Shown in pieces: positions 38,456 through 39,317 of a stretch of 64,000 bases of DNA. The notes under the pieces are model-generated. The model did not search any database, was not told the DNA's origin, and saw nothing but the letters and a program-made list of their open reading frames with translations. The stretch comes from Clostridia bacterium. Lineage in GTDB: Bacteria > Bacillota > Clostridia > RGIG6154. The translations under genes and the position numbers were made by a program. How positions within the stretch are numbered: position 1 is the stretch's first letter; each line of letters begins with the position of its first letter. Where the stretch lies: NCBI GenBank assembly GCA_017409875.1, contig JAFQRW010000017.1, positions 1-64,000 on the forward strand. Direction: 5' to 3'.

Positions 38456-38484
38456 TTGATAAATAAAGAAACATGTGTTATAAT
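38456..38484 (+). promoter_or_regulatory. Promoter of the structured leader RNA
   Basis: TTGATA (38456-38461), 17-bp spacer, TATAAT (38479-38484). The start site is expected at 38490-38492. Confidence 0.8.
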
Positions 38485-38490
38485 ATACTT

Positions 38491-38712
38491 GCTACATCTT
38501 TTTTTATTATTATGTCATATTTTGACAGCATCTAATTGAATAAACATAGCATTAGGAGGTACGCTATTTGTAAAAAGCGTACACTCTTGTTTCGTCATAC
38601 TCCTAAGCTATGGTTTAGATGTAATGAAAAAAGTGTGTAGCAACCTTTGAAACAGAGTCCCTGCGTTTTTTGGTGCGTGGCTCTGCTTTTGGGTAGGCTA
38701 CGCACTTTTTTA
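38491..38712 (+). ncRNA. Candidate riboswitch or attenuator leader upstream of SLOG gene
   Basis: About 222 nt from promoter to terminator. By hand folding: P1 pairs 38491-38505 (the first transcribed bases) with 38627-38641, with one mismatch, and extends by 506-510 with 621-625. Inside are a small hairpin (513-517/523-527), a long arm (530-535/615-620, 545-550/607-612, 552-558/600-606) capped by hairpin 559-565/576-582, and an unpaired stretch 583-599. The 3' strand of P1 (38627-38641) is also the left arm of a terminator whose right arm is 38697-38711 and ends in T6. The two folds exclude one another. The terminator ends 5 nt before the ribosome binding site region of the SLOG gene. I recognise no known class in it. 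Confidence 0.72.
38627..38711 (+). terminator. Intrinsic terminator of the leader RNA
   Basis: A 15-bp stem, AAAAAAGTGTGTAGC with GCTACGCACTTTTTT (one G-T pair), enclosing an inner hairpin CAGAG ... CTCTG. Its left arm can instead pair with the RNA 5' end. Confidence 0.85.
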
Positions 38713-38728
38713 ATTAGCGGAGTATGTT

Positions 38729-39244
38729 ATGGGAACAGAGAAAAAAACCTGCTGCATTTTTGGTCATAGAAAAGTAGCAGGGAAAGAAGAACTAAAAGTC
38801 AGATTGTCGGGGATTTTTGAAAATCTTATTGTAAATGAAAATGTTTGTACTTTCCTTTTTGGAAGCCGAAGTGAGTTTGACGATTTATGTCGTGATATTC
38901 TTGCCGCCAAAAAGGAAAAATATCCGCACATTCAAAGGGTTTATGTTCGTGGCGAATATCCATACATAGATGACGATTATGAAAACTATCTTTTAGAAAG
39001 ATGTGAAAAGACTTATTTTCCACAAAGAGCGATAAATGCAGGAAAAGCTGTTTATATAGAACGCAATTATGAGATGATAGATAATGCCGACATTTGTATT
39101 GTGTATTTCAAAAATAATTATTTACCGATCAGGTGGAAAAACGGTAAACGAGATTTGTTTGATTATCAGCCCAAAAGCGGCACGGGTATAGCGTATAAAT
39201 ATGCTATTCGGAAAAATAGATTTATCATTAATGTGGCGGAATGA
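38729..39244 (+). CDS. SLOG-domain (DUF1273-like) protein
   Basis: 171 residues. The start CCIFGHRKV, then FLFGSRSEFD and the later INAGKAVYIERNYEMIDNADICIVYF plus SGTGIAYKYA fit the SLOG superfamily of Rossmann-like nucleotide-binding proteins, of the YpsA/DUF1273 subgroup. SLOG domains bind nucleotides or nucleotide-derived signals and occur in defence and stress systems. Substrate unknown. GGAG lies ten bases before ATG 38729, directly after the leader terminator, so expression is probably controlled by read-through. Cytoplasmic, no membrane segment. Confidence 0.75.
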   Translation: MGTEKKTCCIFGHRKVAGKEELKVRLSGIFENLIVNENVCTFLFGSRSEFDDLCRDILAAKKEKYPHIQRVYVRGEYPYIDDDYENYLLERCEKTYFPQRAINAGKAVYIERNYEMIDNADICIVYFKNNYLPIRWKNGKRDLFDYQPKSGTGIAYKYAIRKNRFIINVAE

Positions 39245-39248
39245 TTTT

Positions 39249-39310
39249 GCAAATTGGGGACGTGCCTGTTTTTGCAAATTGTGCAAATTGGGGACGTGCC
39301 TGTTTTTGCA
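39249..39310. repeat. Tandem 28-bp repeat pair (REP-like)
   Basis: Two identical copies (39249-39276 and 39283-39310) starting GCAAATTGGGGACGTGCC and ending TGTTTTTGCA. The ends GCAAA/TTTGC are complementary, so each copy can fold. Similar GGGGACGTGCC elements are known as REP sequences mobilised by Y1-type transposases; no transposase is present here. Confidence 0.75.
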
Positions 39311-39317
39311 CAATTTA

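Follow-up and report, generated by a model that had tools for sequence, protein, structure and literature searches.

In the attenuators of pyr operons (PyrR), an anti-antiterminator, an antiterminator and a terminator are mutually exclusive structures. The same exclusivity is predicted for the leader described here, but its 5′ domain is more complex and includes a pseudoknot, and the genes located downstream are unrelated. Leader-peptide attenuators of the trp type also resemble it, as pairing of segments 1:2 plus 3:4 is opposed to pairing of 2:3; they differ in that the present leader has no leader peptide and carries its segment 1 inside a structured domain. T-box leaders (RF00230) likewise act by antiterminator/terminator attenuation in Firmicutes, whereas for this leader no Rfam match was obtained and the first genes downstream are not aminoacyl-tRNA synthetase or amino-acid genes. 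The c-di-GMP-I and c-di-GMP-II riboswitches (RF01051 and RF01786, respectively) occur in many copies per genome, also as tandem copies, and have a cell-surface regulon. All three properties are shared by the leader, which is distinguished from these riboswitches by the absence of an Rfam match and by its presence in genomes without a GGDEF match (23 of the 77 that carry it).

The literature search for the class yielded a single published candidate, the “SLH motif” of Stav et al. 2019. According to that report (PMC6429828), it is a riboswitch candidate from Thermovirga lienii with about 80 examples, reported from Synergistaceae, Clostridia and Negativicutes and located upstream of SLH-domain genes in ~60% of cases. 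On this description, the motif and the present leader are both riboswitch candidates found in Clostridia before genes of SLH-domain surface proteins. They differ in the share of such genes (~60% versus 11 of 95 first genes in this study), as far as the two descriptions can be compared. SLH, SLOG and surface genes are absent from the main text of two later surveys, and neither the mechanism proposed below nor the link to SLOG genes nor the copy numbers were found in the literature searched. The leader family is apparently uncatalogued, although it may overlap the SLH motif.

The leader is located at positions 38456-38728 of the window (the whole 64,000-nt stretch of DNA that was analyzed). We consider it to belong to a large family of transcription attenuators that act in cis through RNA structure, and this family is most likely an orphan riboswitch class (probability of about 0.7). 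The identified features are summarized in Table 1.

Table 1. Predicted features of the leader and of the gene downstream (positions within the window; MFE, minimum free energy structure).
Feature	Position	Strand	Basis and remarks
Sigma-70-type promoter, TTGATA-17-TATAAT	38456-38484	+	11/12 consensus match; TG before the -10 box
P1, 5′ strand (predicted 5′ end of the RNA)	38489-38508	+	MFE and swap test
P1, 3′ strand	38623-38643	+	MFE; alternative pairing of 38627-38641 with 38697-38711
P2, 5′ strand	38545-38558	+	Partner 38600-38612; covariation
P2, 3′ strand	38600-38612	+	Alignments of homologs
P3 hairpin, GTACGC-loop-GCGTAC	38559-38582	+	6/6 pairs covary in the 109-sequence alignment (A4)
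Segment 1: 3′ half of P3 plus junction J (AAAAAGCGTACACTCTTGTTTC)	38572-38593	+	Pairs with segment 2
Segment 2 (GAAACAGAGTCCCTGCGTTTTTT)	38649-38671	+	Partner is segment 1 (pseudoknot) or segment 3 (antiterminator)
Segment 3 (GTGCGTGGCTCTG)	38673-38685	+	3′ arm of the antiterminator and 5′ arm of the terminator
Segment 4: 3′ arm of the terminator plus U-tract 38706-38711	38691-38711	+	Covariation and fold
Ribosome binding site, GGAG	38719-38722	+	Sequence; ATG at 38729
Regulated gene (predicted), YpsA-like SLOG-type protein, 171 aa	38729-39244	+	Similarity to leader-linked subtypes

Both the full leader and its aptamer part fold more stably than dinucleotide-shuffled sequences (z of -7.1 and -8.3, respectively; 0/200 shuffles as good in either case). 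As claimed in the preliminary description of this DNA, a promoter, a P1 helix (containing one bulge in the MFE), a branched domain inside P1 and a terminator ending just 5′ of the ribosome binding site are all recognizable. That description also envisaged a 15-bp terminator formed by the 3′ strand of P1 and followed by T6, strictly exclusive with P1. The 15 bp are indeed possible, but six of them consume the U-tract of segment 4, which is directly followed by AATTAG and by no further T6. Strict exclusivity did not hold: the single-sequence MFE (-78.2 kcal/mol) contains P1 together with a short local terminator (38672-38681 paired with 38696-38705), compared with -75.9 kcal/mol for the large terminator with P1 open. 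A closed P1 alone would therefore not exclude termination. For a transcript ending before segment 4, folding predicts formation of the antiterminator.

Comparison of the whole window with Rfam 15 at gathering thresholds identified two tRNAs only. The leader alone, at E≤10, gave nothing but sub-threshold noise, such as hits of eukaryotic snoRNA/miRNA type, in agreement with the original view of a riboswitch-like attenuating leader undescribed in Rfam, and 20 loci with divergent homologs produced no credible match over the element at E≤1. The matches of BLAST-style DNA searches were confined to this leader family. Within the taxonomic family of the window, leaders were detected in 5 of 6 genomes, where they precede different genes, and a second copy was present in the window's own genome. 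An exact-pattern scan of named genomes returned 27 loci, two of which (L028 and L036) are chance matches; the 25 real copies all originate from MAGs of Clostridia or Oscillospiraceae, mostly with ruminant-gut labels.

A first covariance model (R1) was searched against 391 sampled genomes of the class and matched 77 of them. The second model (R2), built on 109 diverse members, revealed four leader copies in the window's own genome and, in a draw of 398 genomes from the phylum, gave matches in that genome only, which speaks for the specificity of the model. When 18 genomes were rescanned with laxer filters, 0 to 28 copies were found in each (9-28 in 13 of them). Most homologs lie directly 5′ of a gene, many at a distance of 15-30 nt, and most have a -10 box a few bases 5′ of P1. 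Tandem copies are common; locus L177 (G341:C59:10100-12819) consists of three complete leaders arranged head to tail before one gene, each with its own promoter-like -10 box and terminator. No match to the leader was found in viral contigs or in phage and plasmid collections.

Loci L008/L062 (G001:C61) and L046 (G002:C198) retain mainly the 3′ half of the element (segments 2-4, including the terminator), with little or none of the P1-P2-P3 domain. These are probably decayed copies. The partial copy L046 is located upstream of a CDP-alcohol phosphatidyltransferase gene.

Alignment of about 120 homologous leaders, for which the preliminary description had proposed a covariation test, revealed strong covariation in P1, P2, P3, the pseudoknot (1:2) and the terminator (3:4). 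In a MAFFT alignment of 29 sequences fitted to no structure (A2), P2, P3, the pseudoknot and the terminator were paired in 97% of cells, and 16 pairs were changed on both sides, compared to 6.5 from shuffles (0/500). The larger alignment, A4, comprised 109 sequences placed on R1; P2, P3 and T were part of the fit, whereas the pseudoknot was not. A4 contained 535 cells changed on both sides, compared to 127 in shuffles (0/500), and when the partner was slid by one column, the share of paired cells fell from 93% to 36% or less. Both-side changes were observed at 7/7 counted pairs of P2, and covariation at 9/9 pairs of the terminator (99.7% of cells paired) and 6/9 pairs of the pseudoknot (for P3, see Table 1). 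The pseudoknot strands read CTCTTGTTTC/GAAACAGAG in the window, CTTTACTTTG/CAAAGTAGAG in L034, CTTCGAT/ATCGAAG in L020 and L096, ATCTGGTA/TACCAGAT in L087 and GCTTTGATT/AATCAAGGC in L114; in the window, segments 1 and 2 share a 10-bp match (AAAAAGCGTA/TGCGTTTTTT).

Pairing specificity was examined by a swap test, in which the native pairing energy is compared with that of partners exchanged between 118 leaders; this test, like the shuffles, ignores relatedness among the leaders. The native partners were favoured in 90-99% of leaders for P1 (native -21.8 versus swapped -12.9 kcal/mol), 1:2 (-13.7 versus -9.9 kcal/mol; native better in 91%), 2:3 (-14.2 versus -10.4 kcal/mol; 90%) and 3:4 (-18.4 versus -12.4 kcal/mol; 99%). 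The gain for the control combinations 1x3, 1x4 and P1x4 was near zero. In the narrow alignment, a separate count for 2:3 gave two double-change pairs, a number not above that of shuffles, and support for this helix therefore comes from the wider swap test.

Segment 2 contains a near-invariant internal U-tract (38666-38671). Together with the four bases before it, this tract is complementary to the near-invariant A-run at the end of the P3 loop (38572-38576; 86-94% conserved) and the bases that follow. A full 9-11 nt match between A-run and U-run was found in 95 of 117 leaders, compared to 56% when partners were swapped. The lengths of the two runs are also related: where a G follows the A-run, the U-run is longer by one in 68 of 86 leaders, and where no G follows it is not longer in 27 of 31. 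The extra U may be the partner of the following G in a G-U pair. Pairing of the two runs, with lengths that track each other, provides a natural explanation for an otherwise odd conserved U-tract.

The element is a 5′ leader placed between promoter and gene with an intrinsic terminator at its end, and it possesses a conserved structured domain with covariation. As judged from within-sequence pairing specificity, the helices of its expression platform appear to be mutually exclusive, as in transcription-terminating riboswitches. The complementarities suggest that the conserved switch is a four-segment attenuator and not mainly a competition between P1 and the terminator, with 1:2 plus 3:4 as the terminating arrangement and 2:3 as the antiterminator. 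P1 would open the RNA and close a domain holding P2, the P3 hairpin with its A-run and the junction strand J. Segment 1 would capture segment 2 as a pseudoknot, leaving segment 3 free to pair with segment 4, and the resulting terminator would turn the gene off. If segment 1 were withheld by the P1-P2-P3 domain, segment 2 would pair with segment 3, resulting in read-through. An extended 1:2 helix would need to displace the 5′ strand of P3. In the clade of the window, opening of P1 would allow its 3′ strand to build a second, larger terminator, and P1 would therefore have to close for read-through. We infer that such switching takes place in the cell and that the P2-P3-J region is the direct binding site of a small molecule, which may turn genes either on or off.

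The genes downstream of the leaders mainly encode secreted or surface proteins. A crude search for a signal peptide or N-terminal hydrophobic segment was positive for 57 of 110 distinct first genes (52%), compared to a background of 13% among 282 other ORFs from the window and the loci (Fisher p ~3e-14). Pfam analysis of 95 first genes identified BspA-type LRR (12), SLH (11), YpsA/SLOG (10), copper amine oxidase N1 (7), CHAP (5) and MazE/AbrB-type (3) domains. SLOG genes constitute a lineage-specific subset, and three SLOG subtypes dominate the first genes in the window's own close group. The protein encoded in the window has no Pfam match of its own at 1e-3, but is 35% identical (E 5e-19) to the L031 protein, which belongs to the second leader-linked subtype. 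Another member of that subtype (L018) matches PF06908, and the third subtype matches both PF06908 (2.7e-26) and YpsA (PDB 2nx2). Since SLOG is one target among many, the earlier argument from a SLOG gene to a nucleotide-type ligand is weak.

Several further observations were made on the neighbourhood of the leaders. Right after the stop codon of the SLOG gene (39245-39312), a unit containing GCAAATTGGGGACGTGCCTGTTTTTGC occurs twice in tandem, and nowhere else in the window. The window's genome encodes another SLOG paralog (G000:C23:23075-23455; 24% identity), for which R2 detects no leader. At L110, L130 and L086, the genes after the leader encode small DNA-binding proteins of the AbrB/MazE type. 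These proteins carry a zinc-ribbon-like CxxC...CxxC at the C-terminus and could pass the signal on to additional genes. The leaders at L020, L095, L096 and L151 precede a small Cys-rich family (I[ID][IV]TGI[EK]L[TV]PGN..GK[ED]C.GNGE...CCC[DN]EC), whose L020 member has no Pfam match.

In view of the surface regulon, c-di-GMP was considered as the ligand. This is unlikely, given the leader-bearing genomes without a GGDEF match; one of these (G022, 97% complete) has 12 leader copies. GGDEF was not enriched with the RNA, occurring in 54 of 77 RNA-positive and 240 of 314 other genomes (the two genome lists were compared by eye). No metabolic pathway is common to the first genes and hence no single metabolite suggests itself, and it is possible that a protein replaces the ligand as the trigger. 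Tentatively, the leaders may form a new riboswitch class whose signalling molecule is not c-di-GMP. Such a class would globally control the secreted and surface proteome of Clostridia in gut and rumen, by strand exchange of the pre-terminator U-tract with the aptamer A-run; in this complete form, the proposal is possible rather than probable.

Other explanations have to be weighed against an orphan riboswitch class. If the leader belonged to the SLH motif, the class would have been seen before, in narrower breadth and without this mechanism, with which such an identity is compatible. The occurrence of both in Clostridia and the many first genes that encode other surface proteins, besides those with SLH domains, point in this direction. 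The SLH share of only 12%, the figure of about 80 examples in the earlier report and the phylum draw matching a single genome point away from it, and the identity is doubtful, though a serious possibility. The attenuator could also be worked by an RNA-binding protein, with PyrR- or TRAP-like logic, instead of direct ligand binding. The opposition of 1:2/3:4 to 2:3 also serves protein-controlled attenuators, e.g. that of the pyr operon, and such a role would suit both the broad regulon and the conserved single-stranded A-run of P3 and J, which could be a protein site. However, the long P1, P2 and P3 plus the pseudoknot exceed typical protein-binding hairpins in complexity, and a non-systematic inspection of the neighbourhoods revealed no regulator gene that recurs, which makes control by a protein rather unlikely.

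The switch originally proposed, P1 against the terminator with a nucleotide-type ligand, is strong in the window, where the competing pairing (-23.2 kcal/mol) equals the local terminator, and in close relatives, which retain GTGTGTAGC against GCTACGCAC. It is not conserved across the family: native P1′-terminator partners were better than swapped ones in 64% of leaders (-10.4 versus -8.9 kcal/mol), the pairing amounts to ~-6 kcal/mol in other members, and the local terminator is the stronger in 101 of 118 leaders. As SLOG is not a typical target either, this switch is improbable as the general mechanism. Attenuation mediated by ribosomes on a leader peptide would have the same four-segment logic as amino-acid attenuators, but an SD-preceded ORF of at least 8 codons is present in just 26 of 118 leaders, without shared position or sequence, the length of the P3 loop differs by non-multiples of three, and no conserved short ORF overlapping segment 1 was found among the 118 leaders; this mechanism is highly implausible. 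The “start-stop” ATGTAA that some members carry in the P3 loop was considered as a leader peptide and rejected, as it is not conserved. It is just as hard to credit that the leader is a dispersed mobile or repeat element devoid of regulatory function. The many copies per genome, the tandem arrays and a few partial 3′ halves would fit such an element, but pairing was kept while the copies diverged, as the covariation indicates, the position between promoter, terminator and gene is consistent, and the phage and plasmid collections gave no match.

For the leader as an attenuator of the orphan riboswitch type, the tandem and triple copies together with the four-segment logic lead to clear, testable predictions. 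If this reading is correct, the leader would be a regulatory RNA common among uncultured Clostridia of gut and rumen, present in about a fifth of the sampled species of the class, and would offer a handle on surface remodelling in these Clostridia and on the signal behind it.
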